64,000 nt of DNA from a virus, in the IMG/VR virus record IMGVR_UViG_3300021137_000001, positions 62,001 to 126,000 of that record. One strand, given 5' to 3'. A program made the position numbers and the translations under genes. Shown here piece after piece: positions 25,231 to 29,833 of this stretch (positions are counted from its first letter, which is position 1; the number at the start of each line of letters is the position of its first letter). A model generated the notes under the pieces. That model saw only the letters and a program-made list of their open reading frames with translations, had not been told where the DNA came from and searched no databases.

Positions 25231-25887
25231 ATGATACTCGATCCCATTGCTGAATATATAATTATTTCAAAATGGGTAACGGCATTGATTGGCAAAAAAA
25301 TTACTCCTCACAATTTCGTTAAACGATTAGGTAAACATCTTAATAAACGACACAGCGTTAAAGTTAAATGCTTTAAAGATAACGATAGTAAACTTAACAA
25401 GGGCGACTTTACTTTCGGCGGCGAATACGACCCAAATTTAGACGAAGACGAAAGAAAACAATTCAAAGTTTATTTCTTAATTAATCATCCTAAAAAATCT
25501 ACCTGGTATGTTACTGAAGAAATGGTAAACAATATCATACTTGACTTAGTTGAAACACTAGTACACGAATACAGACATCAACATCAATACAGAAGCCGAC
25601 AGTTTATGTTAAACAGAGGTTATGTTAGTAAGCATAGAGATGTCGAAACGAAAAACAATCAAGAATATTTAGGTATGCCCGATGAAATAGATGCGTATGC
25701 GGCAAACATTGCGGCACGACTCTATATAAATAAAAGTGTTGTCCACCCAGATAACAGTGCAGACCTTGCATCATATTACACAGCATTTGGAGCGAATCAC
25801 CCAGTAACACGACTACTATTAAAGAAGATTGTACTACATATAAATTATCTAGAGAACAATAATAATGACAATGCAAATAGAAAGTAG
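25231..25887 (+). CDS. Zincin-like putative metalloprotease
   Basis: A 218-residue protein. LVHEYRHQHQYR near residue 111 has the H-E-x-x-H pattern of zinc-dependent peptidases, and GMPDEIDAYAANIAA about 40 residues later supplies an acidic helix like the third ligand region. T4-like marine phages encode similar proteins of unproven role. It could process virion or host proteins. It overlaps the next gene by 23 bases. Confidence 0.6.
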   Translation: MILDPIAEYIIISKWVTALIGKKITPHNFVKRLGKHLNKRHSVKVKCFKDNDSKLNKGDFTFGGEYDPNLDEDERKQFKVYFLINHPKKSTWYVTEEMVNNIILDLVETLVHEYRHQHQYRSRQFMLNRGYVSKHRDVETKNNQEYLGMPDEIDAYAANIAARLYINKSVVHPDNSADLASYYTAFGANHPVTRLLLKKIVLHINYLENNNNDNANRK

Positions 25888-26056
25888 TGCAGAAAATATT
25901 AAGTGTGATGATTATGTATTTGCTATTGACGCAAATGGAGTAGCACGATTTGTTATGCTACCCGAAGAGTGCAACGAAGTACACCCTAAGATTAAACAGA
26001 TATTTGACTTACTTGGCATAGATACTGCAATGCTTGTGAGTCATCGCTTGCAATAA
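25865..26056 (+). CDS. Small acidic phage protein, unknown
   Basis: A 63-residue acidic protein starting within the previous gene. No motif recognised. Its stop abuts the convergent end of the minus-strand operon at 26057. Confidence 0.5.
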   Translation: MTMQIESSAENIKCDDYVFAIDANGVARFVMLPEECNEVHPKIKQIFDLLGIDTAMLVSHRLQ

Positions 26057-26332
26057 TTAAATTATCGCTTGTTCTCTAAAATCTGATTGAATATAATCGC
26101 TGTACTTTAGCAGAAACATTGTGTACAACATATCATCCCAAAAGTCCAAGCGCATAGTGTATTGCTTTGTCCATTCGGTTTCTTTCTCATCTTTATGTTG
26201 CCGTAGAGTAAAACCCAATTGTTCTCTTAATCGCCAGCTAATCATAACAGTAGTCCGACCATAGTCTTCGATGATTTGAGATTTTAGTTTGTCCCACTGC
26301 CGATTTGATAATGTAATTGTCTTTGCCATCAT
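26057..26332 (-). CDS. Small protein of the LLRW family (i)
   Basis: Last gene of the minus-strand operon, 91 residues. MMAKTITLSNRQWDKLKSQ gives a helical start, and the MLYTMFLLKYSDY segment near residue 75 corresponds to the C-terminal motif of its neighbours, here followed by 14 more residues, so it ends differently. Its ATG overlaps the TGA of the gene before it, and the Shine-Dalgarno (AGGTGGG) is formed by that gene's Arg-Trp-Ala codons. Confidence 0.6.
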   Translation of the reverse strand: MMAKTITLSNRQWDKLKSQIIEDYGRTTVMISWRLREQLGFTLRQHKDEKETEWTKQYTMRLDFWDDMLYTMFLLKYSDYIQSDFREQAII

Positions 26333-26568
26333 GCCCACCTCATTAAAAACATAGTATACGCTTGTTCATCTGGAAATACAATGTACTCCCATCGACCCCA
26401 TCCGGGATTACGTATTACATCACTTACTTTATAATCTTTCTGCCAGAATTCAATCATTTCAGTGAAATGGTAAGCATGACCAATCTCACCACTGTGACTG
26501 GCCACTAATGCCTTGTGCGCATGATCAAACGCTTTTCCCATGTCTTTGATACTAGCAATATAGGTCAT
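26329..26568 (-). CDS. Small protein of the LLRW family (ii)
   Basis: A 79-residue protein starting MTYIASIKDMGKAF, whose ATG overlaps the preceding stop (ATGA). It ends DEQAYTMFLMRWA, the family C-terminal motif: acidic residues, an aromatic, M-F-L-[ML]-R-W-A. The last codons AGG TGG GCA TGA contain the ribosome-binding site and the stop/start overlap for the next gene. Function unknown. Confidence 0.65.
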   Translation of the reverse strand: MTYIASIKDMGKAFDHAHKALVASHSGEIGHAYHFTEMIEFWQKDYKVSDVIRNPGWGRWEYIVFPDEQAYTMFLMRWA

Positions 26569-26801
26569 TCGATATACCATTCGATAAGTTTTAATACTTC
26601 TGTGCGATTTGTGCTGTTCCATAGTCGCATTGCATTGCTGTAACTAATATCACCACCTGACTCCATTATGTCAATAATATGCAGAAATGTATTACTAAAT
26701 GCTTGTCCAATTCGATAGTGCGGATTAGCAATAACTTGAAATAAGTATTGCTTCTCAAACTCCTCAAATTCTTCCATTGTTATGCTACTTTGTGAAGACA
26801 T
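26565..26801 (-). CDS. Small protein after the methyltransferase
   Basis: A 78-residue acidic protein. The ATG at 26801 lies in the last 17 bases of the methyltransferase gene and has GGGAGG 6 bases upstream. It starts MSSQSSITMEEFEEF and ends EVLKLIEWYIE, which loosely recalls the family ending (aromatic and Trp, no LLRWA). Its stop overlaps the next start. Unknown function. Confidence 0.6.
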   Translation of the reverse strand: MSSQSSITMEEFEEFEKQYLFQVIANPHYRIGQAFSNTFLHIIDIMESGGDISYSNAMRLWNSTNRTEVLKLIEWYIE

Positions 26802-27903
26802 AAACACCCTCCCACTTCTCACGCCCTGCAACTTTTTCATTACCAACGCCGGGTCTAGTGTTTAGCATCATCTTAATTGTACCTTGATGTTTAAAGCCTA
26901 AGCTCTCAGCAGTAGCAATCCATCGTTCGCATACAGCATACTCTTTATTACCATATGATTTATAGTCTGCAATGTTAGTTGCAAACACACCATCACTGTT
27001 TAAACCTTTGTGTATGTTTCGCATAGTGGGCGCAACATAACCCTCGAACCATTCATCTAACGTAGTGTACCTAACCATACATTGTGTTGGCTCGTCGCTG
27101 TACTTCTCTAAGTTAAAGTATGGCGGACTACTAAATGCTAAGTCAACATCTGTTGGTTCGTATTCTTCACTTACTGATTGTGTAATCAGACCCTTGTTAC
27201 CCACAGCCTGTTCTATTAGCTCACTTAGGTATGTTAGATGCTGAACTGTTTCTGTGTTAGGGTCGATACATTGGTAGTTGTAACGCATATTGCTAGTCGT
27301 TATACCTAACATGCGTCCACCATAGCCCGCACTGTAGTCATAGACATTGCCCCATAGCACAGGACATAAGTGTTCTACTATAGCACGTGCATTAAGCGAC
27401 TTAAAGTTCTGTACATTCTCACCTGTTACTAACTCTAATGCTCTGCGTAATGCAGTTGGGCTGACTAAATTGTTACCTTCCCTGTATTCAAAGCATAAAT
27501 TGATTGCACGTTTTAATTTAGCATCACTTAGGAAGCGATCTTTTAAACTGTTACTGCCACGTCCTTTTGGTTCAGCAGTCATCATGTTTGGGAACAAAAA
27601 TCTATTAATACCTTGTCCTTGATTGTTACCTAAGTTGATAACATTATTCTTAACACTATTGGTTACAGTCTCAGACAAATCTTTAATAGCAGAGATCAAC
27701 CCAGCTTCTGTGTAATAAACAATCGGAGTAATGTTTATACTGCGATAGATGTCAAACACTTGCTGTATTGTGTCAACTGGATCTTTAACCCATTGTTCTT
27801 TAGTAAACGTGTCTAGTTTATCCTGTACTGATTCGTAGCAGGTAAACTGCGGTTGAGTTGCGTACTGCGCCACACCCCATATATTATGTAAATCTGTTAT
27901 CAT
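26785..27903 (-). CDS. DNA methyltransferase (SPPY type)
   Basis: A 372-residue amino-methyltransferase. VYDYSAGYGGRMLG near residue 187 is the AdoMet-binding motif I and LAFSSPPYFNLEKY near residue 255 is the catalytic motif IV (S-P-P-Y) of N4-cytosine/N6-adenine DNA methyltransferases. The N-terminal 110 residues and the ALRRALELV segment are probably target-recognition or accessory. No restriction endonuclease partner is nearby, so it may protect phage DNA or regulate expression. Start ATG overlaps the preceding stop (ATGA). Confidence 0.85.
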   Translation of the reverse strand: MITDLHNIWGVAQYATQPQFTCYESVQDKLDTFTKEQWVKDPVDTIQQVFDIYRSINITPIVYYTEAGLISAIKDLSETVTNSVKNNVINLGNNQGQGINRFLFPNMMTAEPKGRGSNSLKDRFLSDAKLKRAINLCFEYREGNNLVSPTALRRALELVTGENVQNFKSLNARAIVEHLCPVLWGNVYDYSAGYGGRMLGITTSNMRYNYQCIDPNTETVQHLTYLSELIEQAVGNKGLITQSVSEEYEPTDVDLAFSSPPYFNLEKYSDEPTQCMVRYTTLDEWFEGYVAPTMRNIHKGLNSDGVFATNIADYKSYGNKEYAVCERWIATAESLGFKHQGTIKMMLNTRPGVGNEKVAGREKWEGVYVFTK

Positions 27904-28157
27904 TCGCTAAACCTTAATAAAAATAGCATACGGTCTTTTTCTTCTTTAAAATAATACTTGCGGTCACTTGCTATCCATTTAGCATCGTCATACCACCAAC
28001 CGCCCGGTCCGAATGTTTGTGTAAGCCACGCATGATAATGATCAAACGTTGCCTTTGCTTCATAATGCGGCATAGTTGGTATAGTAACATAATCAGCAGG
28101 TTTTGCCCAATGATATTCCATTGTTTTATCATCATACCAAGTTGTTCCAGTTTCCAT
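27900..28157 (-). CDS. Small protein of the LLRW family (iii)
   Basis: An 85-residue Trp- and Tyr-rich protein starting METGTTWYDDKT, with start overlapping the preceding stop (TAATG). It ends EEKDRMLFLLRFSE, the family motif with RFSE in place of RWA. A GPGGWWYDDAKW segment lies in the middle. Function unknown. Confidence 0.65.
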   Translation of the reverse strand: METGTTWYDDKTMEYHWAKPADYVTIPTMPHYEAKATFDHYHAWLTQTFGPGGWWYDDAKWIASDRKYYFKEEKDRMLFLLRFSE

Positions 28158-28405
28158 TATGCCCACCTCAATAATATCATCAGATACTTCTGTTCATCTA
28201 TTACTGTATGCCTATTATAAAATCCATTAACATCTAAGTGTATAGCCATCCCGTATGTATTGCGCATATAAAGTATAAAGTCCTTTGATAGTGCAAATCC
28301 ATTGGGTAGATTATTTTCCCTATTATAAATTCCTTTTATCCTGATAAGCCTAACCGCCATTTCACGGGTGAACCCACTTTTGCTTAATTTAGCCGTAGTT
28401 GCCAC
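28157..28405 (-). CDS. Small protein of the LLRW family (iv)
   Basis: An 82-residue basic protein. I place the start at a GTG overlapping the preceding TAG (TAGTG), matching the stop/start overlaps of the neighbours; an in-frame GTG 9 bases earlier is the alternative. It ends IDEQKYLMILLRWA. The AGG TGG GCA codons again provide the ribosome-binding site for the next gene. Confidence 0.62.
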   Translation of the reverse strand: MATTAKLSKSGFTREMAVRLIRIKGIYNRENNLPNGFALSKDFILYMRNTYGMAIHLDVNGFYNRHTVIDEQKYLMILLRWA

Positions 28406-28608
28406 TATGCCCACTTCAATAAAAACATAGTAGCATCTTCTTCTGTGTCAAACGTAACAACGTAATCAACTAAGCCCATGTTATCTCCCACTTGTCCACG
28501 ATATACTTTATAAAACTGTTCGGAAGTAATGTTGTTGAGATAATTTCTATATTCTAACACACTTGCGGCTTTATGCACTGCACGATATGGGACAGTTATA
28601 GTAATCAT
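28405..28608 (-). CDS. Small protein of the LLRW family (v)
   Basis: A 67-residue protein starting MITITVPYRAVHK, ATG overlapping the preceding TGA. It ends TEEDATMFLLKWA, the clearest copy of the family motif: two acidic residues, D-A, then M-F-L-L-K-W-A. Function unknown. Confidence 0.65.
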   Translation of the reverse strand: MITITVPYRAVHKAASVLEYRNYLNNITSEQFYKVYRGQVGDNMGLVDYVVTFDTEEDATMFLLKWA

Positions 28609-28847
28609 TTCACCCACCGTAAAGTAAACATTAAAGCATGCTGTGGGTCGCGAAAGTTAGCTAAGGTGCAATCCCATCCCCAATTAAAATACCACTCACG
28701 CAAGTCACTTGGCAACTTAAATGTTTCGACACACCACTTGTATTCTGGCAGTTTCGTTAAGTCGCCGTCGACTAGATAGTTGTTACTGTTAATTAGTTTA
28801 ACACGTGTGTACTGTGGTATTCCTAATATATCTGGAGTCATAACCAT
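28605..28847 (-). CDS. Small protein of the LLRW family (vi)
   Basis: An 80-residue protein starting MVMTPDILGIPQY directly after the preceding TAA. It ends DPQHALMFTLRWVK. Codons CGG TGG GTG AAA at the end serve as ribosome-binding site for the next ATG. Function unknown. Confidence 0.65.
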   Translation of the reverse strand: MVMTPDILGIPQYTRVKLINSNNYLVDGDLTKLPEYKWCVETFKLPSDLREWYFNWGWDCTLANFRDPQHALMFTLRWVK

Positions 28848-29087
28848 TTAACTGTGCTTGAGCAAGAAATAGGTCATGTATTCACGTGCTTCTTGCTCAC
28901 GTCTACCATCCCAATGCCACATATCATATGACATACGCTTGACACCTTTGCGCCCATCTAATTCTTCATTACAAGCGTCCAGTGCCGCGTCCCAACCGAT
29001 AAATTCTCGATACGTTGCATGCGCAACACCCAAGTCGTGTATGCGCATAACCCAGTGATTGTTTTCTTGCTCTAAAGTAATATTCAT
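28848..29087 (-). CDS. First gene of the minus-strand small-protein operon
   Basis: A 79-residue protein. The ATG at 29087 (MNITLEQENN) is exactly at the predicted +1 of the minus-strand sigma70 promoter, so it would be translated from a leaderless mRNA; an in-frame ATG 15 bases upstream lies before +1. It ends REYMTYFLLKHS, a variant of the family ending. Middle part is charged and Trp-rich. Function unknown. Confidence 0.6.
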   Translation of the reverse strand: MNITLEQENNHWVMRIHDLGVAHATYREFIGWDAALDACNEELDGRKGVKRMSYDMWHWDGRREQEAREYMTYFLLKHS

Positions 29088-29093
29088 ACATAC

Positions 29094-29122
29094 ATTATAC
29101 ATTCTATAGAGCTAAAAGTCAA
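29094..29122 (-). promoter_or_regulatory. Sigma70-type promoter of the minus-strand operon
   Basis: On the minus strand: TTGACT at 29122-29117, 17-base spacer, TATAAT at 29099-29094, predicted +1 at 29087. Its -35 box is one arm of a 9-base inverted repeat shared with the divergent promoter. Confidence 0.75.
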
Positions 29123-29144
29123 GTGGAAATACAGGTTGACTTTT
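29114..29144. promoter_or_regulatory. Symmetric core between divergent early promoters
   Basis: AAAAGTCAA and TTGACTTTT form a perfect 9-base inverted repeat containing both -35 boxes, 13 bases apart. One regulator could act on both promoters at this symmetric site (inference). Confidence 0.55.
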
Positions 29145-29164
29145 CGGTTAAATGACTGTATAAT
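29136..29164 (+). promoter_or_regulatory. Sigma70-type early promoter
   Basis: TTGACT at 29136, 17-base spacer, TATAAT at 29159. The region after it (ACATACACTAA and a GGAGAATAAA or GGAAGAATAAA site) is nearly repeated at 29621. Confidence 0.75.
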
Positions 29165-29195
29165 GTTTACATACACTAAAGCAACGGAGAATAAA

Positions 29196-29381
29196 ATGAA
29201 CAAACAACAACTAATTGAAAAACAAGTTACTGAAATGGTATGTAAGGCATTATTTGATTTGGAAAGTAAATTGGTTACTAAGTTTGACATTGAAAGTTTA
29301 GACGCTTACATTGATGGCGAAAAGTACAACAAGGTAATTGATAAAATGATTAAAATGTATATAACAGCGGCGGTGCAATAA
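29196..29381 (+). CDS. Small early protein 1
   Basis: A 61-residue charged helical protein starting MNKQQLIEKQV with GGAGA 8 bases upstream. No motif recognised. The stop overlaps the next start (TAATG). Immediate neighbour of a strong host-type promoter, so probably an early host-takeover gene (inference). Confidence 0.6.
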   Translation: MNKQQLIEKQVTEMVCKALFDLESKLVTKFDIESLDAYIDGEKYNKVIDKMIKMYITAAVQ

Positions 29382-29596
29382 TGAACATTGAAGAAATGAT
29401 TATTGCAAATAATATTAATCAAGCAATGGATAACGACATTGAGGAAATGATTGATGAGCTGGCAACAATAACAAGCATTGGTGTTTGTAATACAATTGAT
29501 TGGTTGCAAGGTTTTAATTTTACTGATAACGAATTAGAAATGCTTGCTCACGCAGTTATGGTTATGCAACGTGAACGAGATATAGCTAACAAATAG
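29381..29596 (+). CDS. Small early protein 2
   Basis: A 71-residue acidic helical protein starting MNIEEMIIANN, coupled to the gene before it. No function recognised. Confidence 0.6.
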   Translation: MNIEEMIIANNINQAMDNDIEEMIDELATITSIGVCNTIDWLQGFNFTDNELEMLAHAVMVMQRERDIANK

Positions 29597-29597
29597 G

Positions 29598-29626
29598 TTG
29601 ACAAATGCAGTTTAAGACTGTATAAT
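29598..29626 (+). promoter_or_regulatory. Sigma70-type early promoter
   Basis: Perfect TTGACA at 29598, 17-base spacer, perfect TATAAT at 29621. The -10 region and leader copy those of the promoter at 29136. Confidence 0.85.
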
Positions 29627-29659
29627 GTTACACATACACTAACAACAAGGAAGAATAAA

Positions 29660-29833
29660 ATGGCAGGCAAAGCAACTTCAGTTTACTTAACAGTTAGCTA
29701 TACAGGAACACATAAAACTGCCCTGCACAAAATGTTTTTCAATGCAACTGAAATGAATAAATTCACTGCAACAGATGAATTTAAAGAGAAGTATATGACA
29801 CCTGAATTTTATTTAACTAAAGAAGTTTACTAG
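29660..29833 (+). CDS. Small early protein 3
   Basis: A 57-residue protein starting MAGKATSVYLTVSYTG, with GGAAGAATAAA in front of the ATG. It is beta-rich at the start and ends in a helix (TDEFKEKYMTPEF). No family recognised. Cotranscribed with the next two genes. Confidence 0.6.
   Translation: MAGKATSVYLTVSYTGTHKTALHKMFFNATEMNKFTATDEFKEKYMTPEFYLTKEVY

Follow-up and report, generated by a model that had tools for sequence, protein, structure and literature searches.

Genes and junctions of the operon

The window (the whole stretch of 64,000 nucleotides that was analysed) carries on its minus strand, from 26057 to 29102, a methyltransferase gene and eight small open reading frames (Table 1). 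Their head-to-tail order and stop/start overlaps, as originally described, are confirmed in the open reading frames and in the sequence. The first start of the operon is most likely 29087 rather than 29102. It is preceded by a putative promoter whose -10 element ends 6 nt ahead of the ATG at 29087, so that the P1 transcript may be leaderless. Promoters ahead of array-first genes are not a general feature (33 of 372 versus 7.6% in the control), and no terminator-like stem was found in 25700-29700. The methyltransferase, which has the sequence SSPPYF, matches the profiles of PADLOC MTase_II (8.5e-7) and PHROG 498 (1.5e-5), and 80 of its relatives served as the basis for the collection of loci. 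P7 matches phrog_6714 at 4e-8.

The genes P1 to P5 are joined, in order, by a TAA abutting an ATG, by AAATGA, by GCATAGTGG and by GCATAATGG. Past P5, the overlaps are GAATGA (methyltransferase), 17 nt (methyltransferase into P7), GAATGA (P8) and GCATGATGG (P9). The energies of pairing with the anti-Shine-Dalgarno (anti-SD) sequence are 0.1 kcal/mol for P2 and -2.8 kcal/mol (weak) for P8; those of the other starts are in Table 1. The SD of the methyltransferase is displaced in the 5' direction, and the tail of P5 has one extra residue ahead of its stop codon. According to the original prediction, the protein tail doubles as the SD site of the next gene. This holds at five of the eight junctions and fails at P2, at P7, whose SD lies within the methyltransferase gene and outside the tail motif, and at P8, whose site is weak. 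The further proposal that one sequence combines a protein motif with an SD site and a stop/start coupler is supported, without any expression data.

Table 1. Genes and putative signals of the operon, in the order of the minus strand (dG, pairing with the anti-SD sequence in kcal/mol)
Feature	Position	Strand	Remarks
Sigma-70-like promoter TTGACT-17-TATAAT	29094..29122	-	11/12 consensus matches; consensus match only
P1, small protein, tail YFLLKHS	28848..29087	-	start 29087 preferred to 29102
P2, tail MFTLRWVK	28605..28847	-	in largest subfamily (WCVETFKLPSDLREWY...); AlphaFold model pLDDT 82
CGGTGGGTG, R-W-V codons, SD-like site for P3	28611..28619	-	dG -5.6
P3, tail MFLLKWA	28405..28608	-	
GAAGTGG, L-K-W codons, SD for P4	28411..28417	-	dG -4.8; GTG start in GCATAGTG
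P4, tail MILLRWA	28157..28405	-	
GAGGTGG, L-R-W codons, SD for P5	28163..28169	-	dG -8.3; TAATG overlap
P5, tail LFLLRFSE	27900..28157	-	independent profile, E 1.2e-5
TAAGG, L-R codons (RF variant), SD for methyltransferase	27912..27916	-	dG -3.9
DNA methyltransferase, 372 aa	26785..27903	-	SPPY motif; embedded in array
GGGAGGGTG, ordinary intragenic SD for P7	26805..26813	-	dG -10.7; within methyltransferase gene
P7, small protein without motif, end KLIEWYIE	26565..26801	-	PHROG 6714, unknown function
P8, tail MFLMRWA	26329..26568	-	
GAGGTGG, M-R-W codons, SD for P9	26335..26341	-	dG -6.9; GCATGATGG
P9, motif MFLLKYSDY internal	26057..26332	-	last gene of operon

A superfamily with a common tail

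The tail [DE]-x-x-[AY]-x-x-[FI]-x-[LM]-[RK]-[WFYH] is found in seven of the eight small proteins of the window, so that the C-terminal pattern announced for most of them stands for all except P7. In P9 the motif sits 13-14 residues ahead of the protein end; members of its subfamily, mostly located in last-gene position, retain the motif internally. The likeness of the tails is not due to chance, since a profile built without P5 finds P5 at E=1.2e-5 and since tail positions that were not selected for are conserved: the pattern scan of IMG/VR imposed no residues other than E/D, A, F, L, R, W and A/S, and its 98 diverse tails have F at -15 in 87 cases and D at -10 in 71.

The superfamily collected from IMG/VR contigs comprises 926 distinct members, and about 30 body clusters have the tail in common. 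The bodies had been said to differ, which is true of their sequences but not of their kind, as a body Trp (mostly W[CLMAIV]) occurs in 96% of the 926 and they have the predicted fold in common. For one member of 73 residues, AlphaFold predicts a compact beta-alpha-beta-beta-alpha domain (pLDDT 92.5) with a final helix at residues 62-72. Judging from this model, the tail motif would be the last helix of the domain, the packing of this helix being inferred. Comparison of the fold with the PDB gave a best E of 0.97 with Foldseek, and VIA a best Z of 5.4, to KH/PII-like arrangements. Foldseek gave a probability of 1.0 to uncharacterised proteins of 55-92 aa from uncultured Caudovirales phages in BFVD (e.g. 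A0A6J7WGT2 and A0A6J5LHB1). These unannotated proteins, whose sequences are unchecked, probably belong to the superfamily.

The family libraries recovered almost nothing: no match in Pfam at E<=0.01 (36 members), none in NCBIfam (44 members), none in PADLOC for the small proteins of the window, and only isolated weak matches in PHROGs (36 and 46 members), with the exception of the motif-less P7. The operon has no blastn match in cultured phages, and tblastn of seven members or tails against these phages at E 10 gave none or weak unrelated matches, a negative that cannot exclude distant relatives with such short proteins. The strict motif pattern has no match across 84,980 bacterial and archaeal genomes, and hence gives no pointer to a cellular family. 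A sequence search of solved structures returned nothing credible, and no description of the motif or of the superfamily was found in the literature (open PMC papers only). The superfamily and the cassette layout proposed below appear to be new, SDs within upstream genes being already known. This is a large unannotated superfamily of uncultured large phages that is invisible to those family libraries and cultured-phage records that were searched.

Selection on residues and on codons

A stop/start overlap or abutment is found in 705 of 883 members. Comparing homologues that have a coupled follower with those that lack one amounts to a clean natural experiment, in which selection on protein and on RNA can be separated for the same codons. 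Whether the conserved ends reflect one or the other had been left open in the original prediction, which proposed to look at members not followed by a gene. Uncoupled members mostly keep the motif with its aromatic end (W in 80 of 102, R/K in 91 of 102), which identifies it as a protein motif, and they lose the SD codons, the Arg being encoded by CGT, CGC or CGA in place of AGG. In a strict uncoupled set (n=31), the motif is weaker, with W in 15 of 31, so the preference for Trp may be partly driven by RNA. The strict filter, which demands no start codon nearby, is biased because NNA-TGG itself makes an ATG, and it was retained purely as a conservative check.

On a purely RNA reading, the repeated need for an SD and an ATGA would force LRW[AS] on unrelated proteins, by convergence as in S-PM2. 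Forced ends of this kind do occur in that phage, and the frequency of Trp is higher among coupled members than in the strict uncoupled set. However, an SD fits into a variety of frames and residues, and junctions outside the family, on the same contigs, end variously; the conserved F, D/E, A, F and L fall outside any SD; the body Trp and the predicted fold are common to members; and uncoupled members retain RW with CGN codons. This reading is mostly refuted and scarcely credible.

The codons give the other half of the picture. Among the Arg codons of these genomes, only one is rarer than AGG, which makes up 5.8% of them. AGG is nevertheless used in 444 of the 558 motifs of coupled genes (80%; 131 of 145 in a separate count), versus only 17 of 62 (27%) in uncoupled genes (p 2e-16). 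Matched homologous pairs from all families, which replaced a phylogenetic pair test in one subfamily, have a discordant split of 23:1 (p 3e-6); the tree of that subfamily had only two well-supported independent switches, consistent in direction and too few for significance. In coupled RW genes, the anti-SD energy is -6.6, versus -1.6 in synonymous shuffles, and uncoupled genes have no such difference. Furthermore, the third base of the preceding Leu codon depends on the distance from AGG to the start, with G:A ratios of 290:18 at 8, 51:35 at 11 and 3:11 at 14. This change from G to A matches the register shift from GAGGTG to TAAGG, which preserves the SD spacing.

These data bear on a purely protein reading, according to which the tail serves as a structural helix or as a tag that binds a partner, and the AGGTGG codons merely result from codon usage or shared descent. 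The motif does reach 15 residues upstream, beyond any action of an SD, uncoupled members do keep it, and the Tyr and His variants are overlapped yet do not pair with the anti-SD (mean dG close to -0.8 and -0.7). But a rare codon that dominates in coupled members only, the matched pairs and a Leu codon that follows the distance to the start all contradict it. The contrast between coupled and uncoupled codons largely refutes this reading, which is thus very improbable. Residue retention and codon contrast answer the question with "both": selection at the two levels is supported, the residues being kept mainly for the protein and the codons for the RNA.

Probable arrays of self-coupling cassettes

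The largest array packs about 46 genes with the motif into 14.5 kb of one strand, and a single contig of 154 kb gives 38 profile hits. In 84 pairs (28 non-overlapping), the sequences are alike up to the ATGA (identity about 0.92) and differ directly past it (about 0.3); the reverse pattern is found in 36 pairs (17 non-overlapping), and 42 upstream genes occur with two or more different downstream partners. As a pattern, this shows that related phages exchange entire genes, with breakpoints precisely at the stop/start overlap, recombination at the box itself being inferred.

The operon of the window is likely, with the inferred steps included, to be a short array of self-coupling cassettes, for which the following scheme can be proposed. 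Each small gene would encode a beta-alpha-beta-beta-alpha domain with the last helix [DE]..A..F.L[RK][WFY][AS], as judged from sequence and predicted structure. The codons at the helix end are chosen so that L-R-W is written (G)AGGTGG, or (T)AAGG if the tail is one residue longer. The SD thereby stands at a set distance from the stop-overlapping ATG, as the statistics show. Given this fixed position, terminating ribosomes would restart on the next gene, which is inferred, and such restarts would couple expression along the array, for which no expression data exist. As every gene has the same 3' coupler, any member could follow any other; a coupler carried in each gene, combined with whole-gene swaps at the overlap, would make each gene a self-coupling cassette. 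The outcome would be a variable repertoire of small paralogous proteins in large uncultured phages. This suggests a simple route by which phages could hold a growing and shuffled small-protein repertoire that is evenly expressed.

The cassette idea would be superfluous if this were an ordinary operon of duplicated genes, in which the dual use is real but the same in kind as at any ATGA pair. Intragenic SDs and coupling are indeed general. Gene pairs a few bases apart have their SD in the upstream coding 3' end (Palleja et al. 2009, PMC2784483), and in H. volcanii and E. coli, coupling by termination-reinitiation at ATGA/TGATG overlaps was demonstrated in 13 of 14 pairs (Huber et al. 2019, PMC6728339). 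The former, a genome-wide statistic without any protein motif, resembles the array by the SD in the upstream end. The latter shares with it the stop/start overlaps and the SD motifs within the upstream gene, but these lie in unrelated gene ends, whereas here one conserved protein motif recurs in hundreds of paralogues and coupling is inferred. At non-family ATGA junctions of the same contigs, the SDs in upstream genes are also selected at the codon level (-3.8 observed versus -2.3), so that this part is ordinary. The codon effect at family junctions is however about 2.8 times as large (-4.3 versus -1.6 kcal/mol), a box of 12-14 nt is common to hundreds of unalike genes, arrays reach the size given above and swaps are centred on the box. 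An ordinary operon thus remains possible, although doubtful.

Swaps in operons with 4-nt overlaps must break at the ATGA regardless, so the breakpoints are not by themselves proof of recombination at the box. It can only be suggested tentatively that phages exchange genes at the box (L/M)-R-W = (G)AGGTGG-nn-ATGA and that this defines a new type of gene-cassette array, where small paralogues are added, deleted and shuffled by recombination, with fold, ribosome site and overlap left intact and no need for a recombinase or an intergenic site. As to the use of the small proteins, early host interaction or counter-defence is the likeliest guess, based on the size and turnover of the arrays and on the absence of the proteins from core families. 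If they do act on hosts, the arrays would offer many new functions in host takeover or counter-defence.

Comparison with other phage gene arrays

The closest layout is that of the S-PM2 ORFanage, a single block of small orphan ORFs that overlap in tandem, carried by a large T4-like phage; the block is costly in culture, and its gene order is poorly conserved on metagenomic fragments (Puxty et al. 2015, PMC4503421). Three superfamily profiles have no match in S-PM2 1-50000 (best E 0.2), and the ORFanage was rejected as a homologous case on this ground. Its -ND/-DD ends follow from ATGACTGA overlaps alone, and no long tail motif was seen.

Intergenic promoter stem-loops located at gene borders are tied to gene shuffling in T4-like phages. 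Since the genes of the window overlap, they leave no intergenic space for a stem-loop of this type. Such T4-type mobile regulatory cassettes are discussed in the paper on S-PM2 (PMC4503421); whereas their element is an intergenic promoter stem-loop, that of the array lies within the coding sequence and would work at the level of translation.

Organization of the operon and its surroundings

The 329,321-base IMG/VR virus record, of which the window covers bases 62001–126000, can be attributed to a large tailed phage, as a DnaB-like helicase and NrdA/NrdB are encoded in the window. On the minus strand, at 26057–29087, eight small ORFs and one methyltransferase gene (P1 to P5, the methyltransferase, then P7 to P9) lie head to tail with stop/start overlaps. 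The original observation, that most of these small proteins share a C-terminal tail whose codons can act as the Shine-Dalgarno site (SD) of the next gene, is confirmed. The tail is present in seven of the eight, and in P9, the last gene, MFLLKYSDY is located 13–14 residues from the protein end. According to anti-SD pairing energies, the motif-embedded SD is found at five of the eight junctions, namely those preceding P3, P4, P5, the methyltransferase and P9, whereas P2 has no SD, P8 has a weak one and P7 has an ordinary SD within the methyltransferase gene. Judged from its sequence, P7 is an unrelated passenger within the array. Just a couple more superfamily members were seen in the rest of the 329-kb genome.

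Features of the array with particular properties
Feature	Coordinates	Strand	Remarks
P7	26565–26801	minus	motif absent; phrog_6714 profile match (E 4e-8); start inside methyltransferase gene
Methyltransferase	26785–27903	minus	embedded in array

Full-length relatives of the methyltransferase (34–35% identity), annotated as hypothetical, occur in Bacteroides phages DAC16 to DAC23 and SJC03. Two divergent sigma-70-like promoters (each TTGACT-17-TATAAT) lie back to back at 29094–29164, preceding the array on one side and plus-strand genes on the other. Only 6 nt separate the minus-strand promoter from the ATG at 29087, suggesting that the first gene is leaderless; similar cases were seen at two comparison loci (L238, 1007; L182, 3701).

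A superfamily defined by its C-terminal tail

In 80 related viral contigs gathered via the methyltransferase, a profile built on the C-terminal 27 residues detected about 150 distinct tails, spread over about 30 clusters of unalike bodies. The bodies thus differ as proposed, except that a body Trp is present in 96% of the 926 distinct members found over all loci (median 77 aa) and W[CLMAIV] in 82%. A scan of IMG/VR with a degenerate DNA pattern, fixing D/E, A, F, L, R, W and A/S but leaving the Arg codon open, matched at least 120 stretches. In 98 mutually diverse tails among the matches listed, positions that had not been fixed are also conserved (counted from the protein end, F at -15 in 87/98 and D at -10 in 71/98). 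To judge from these tails, the motif is a real and widespread protein feature. The highest copy number was found in a 154-kb contig (L299, 38 profile hits), an extreme array in which about 46 motif genes occupy 14.5 kb of one strand within 118000–136000, with overlaps at nearly all of them.

Profile searches of members revealed no family in Pfam or NCBIfam and only isolated weak matches in PHROGs; PADLOC gave no match to the small window proteins, and tblastn against 50,697 cultured-phage records gave no relative. An AlphaFold model from 44 aligned members (73 residues, mean pLDDT 92.5) comprises a strand (8–13), a helix (14–28), two strands (42–46 and 54–59) and a helix (62–72), and that of P2 (pLDDT 82) has the same element order. 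As a helix closes the fold in both models, the motif is predicted to be the last helix of the members; A, F and W at -9, -6 and -2 would, by inference, lie on one face of it. PDB comparisons provided no clear match (best Foldseek E 0.97, best VIA Z 5.4), and the dozens of BFVD hits, many with a probability of 1.0, are uncharacterised proteins from uncultured Caudovirales phages.

Selection for protein and for RNA

The motif Arg is encoded by AGG in 444/558 coupled members (overlapped by the start of the next gene) vs 17/62 uncoupled ones (883 members, Fisher p 2e-16); in the contigs collected first, AGG makes up 5.8% of the Arg codons of long genes. This supports the proposal that one stretch is at once protein motif, SD and stop/start coupler. 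When each uncoupled Arg member was paired with its nearest coupled homologue, chosen by body sequence alone, AGG occurred in the coupled partner only in 23 pairs and in the uncoupled one only in 1 (p 3e-6). Coupled RW genes have a mean anti-SD energy of -6.6 vs -1.6 in synonymous shuffles, whereas uncoupled genes do not differ from their shuffles. Uncoupled status was judged from ORF length near the stop, and the tree of one subfamily contains only two well-supported independent switches.

In the NLPRGR...FLLRW[AGSC] subfamily, the L-R-W codons are TTG/ATG/TTA AGG/AGA TGG when an overlapping follower is present; without follower, LLRW is kept and Arg is often CGT, CGC, CGA or CGG. Retention of the motif without a following gene, the original check for selection on the protein, is seen here and is weaker in a strict uncoupled set (n=31), which has W in only 15 members and Tyr in 12, so RNA selection may help to choose Trp too. 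AGG is less favoured in this set (5/13, p 0.002). Of the two reasons envisaged for conserved ends, protein or RNA, both are supported as acting on the tail, by the unselected F and D positions and the matched pairs, respectively.

The Leu codon follows the position of AGG. If AGG begins 8 nt upstream of the following start codon, G outnumbers A at the third position of the Leu codon by 290 to 18, giving GAGGTG; at 11 nt, the G:A ratio is 51 to 35; at 14 nt, it is 3 to 11, giving TAAGG. Aligned to TAAGGAGGTG, the GAGGTG and TAAGG registers would pair with the anti-SD in an identical way, at about 5 nt from the start codon. Within the window, such a shift is exemplified by P5 with its RFSE tail.

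One side branch of the NLPRGR members (L049 around 4043, L145–L147, L157, L158) has a short next gene whose product starts like a lipoprotein, with hydrophobic residues. Its start codon seems to lie within the codons for Arg-Trp (NNATGG), so that the R codon must end in A and R often becomes K, Q or T. A Tyr-ending subfamily (FKLKYA, AAA codons; L039–L050 group, e.g. L042 2550–2810) has the ATGA overlap without SD; reinitiation alone may therefore suffice.

Exchange at junctions

Among related phages, one upstream gene has differing followers in 42/592 groups, and one downstream gene, the methyltransferase included, is preceded by differing members in 35/597. The mean of 84 pairs (28 non-overlapping) shows an identity of about 0.92 as far as ATGA and of about 0.3 immediately past it; in the mirror set (36 pairs, 17 non-overlapping), it rises from about 0.25–0.57 to 0.94 at the start codon. 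As viable swaps must break at the 4-nt overlaps, these data demonstrate modular exchange but not its mechanism. Exchange at junctions, the shared tail, its predicted helix and a choice of codons that fits the start of the next gene are established. By inference, the array genes would be translationally coupled one to the next, and recombination might be helped by the 12–14 nt box that the genes share at their junctions. As a guess, the member proteins could form a variable repertoire acting in host interaction or counter-defence.

Relation to known arrangements

A baseline is given by 126 ATGA junctions in these contigs that join longer genes from outside the family. There too, the upstream gene contains the SD and is under codon selection, with an effect of -1.6 kcal/mol vs -4.3 at family junctions. 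Such placement, already published (PMC2784483, PMC6728339), is therefore ordinary. The special feature is that a single conserved protein motif supplies the SD across hundreds of paralogues; the principle is known, but the superfamily and its layout of self-coupling cassettes, each gene carrying its own 3' coupler, appear undescribed. The nearest layout in a cultured phage is the S-PM2 ORFanage (PMC4503421), which is not homologous to the superfamily, three profiles having given a best E of 0.2 against S-PM2 1–50000. Many ORFanage proteins (L311, 5786–14538) have -ND or -DD as their C-terminus, owing to an xATGACTGA overlap of adjacent ORFs, these shared ends arising from the overlap alone.
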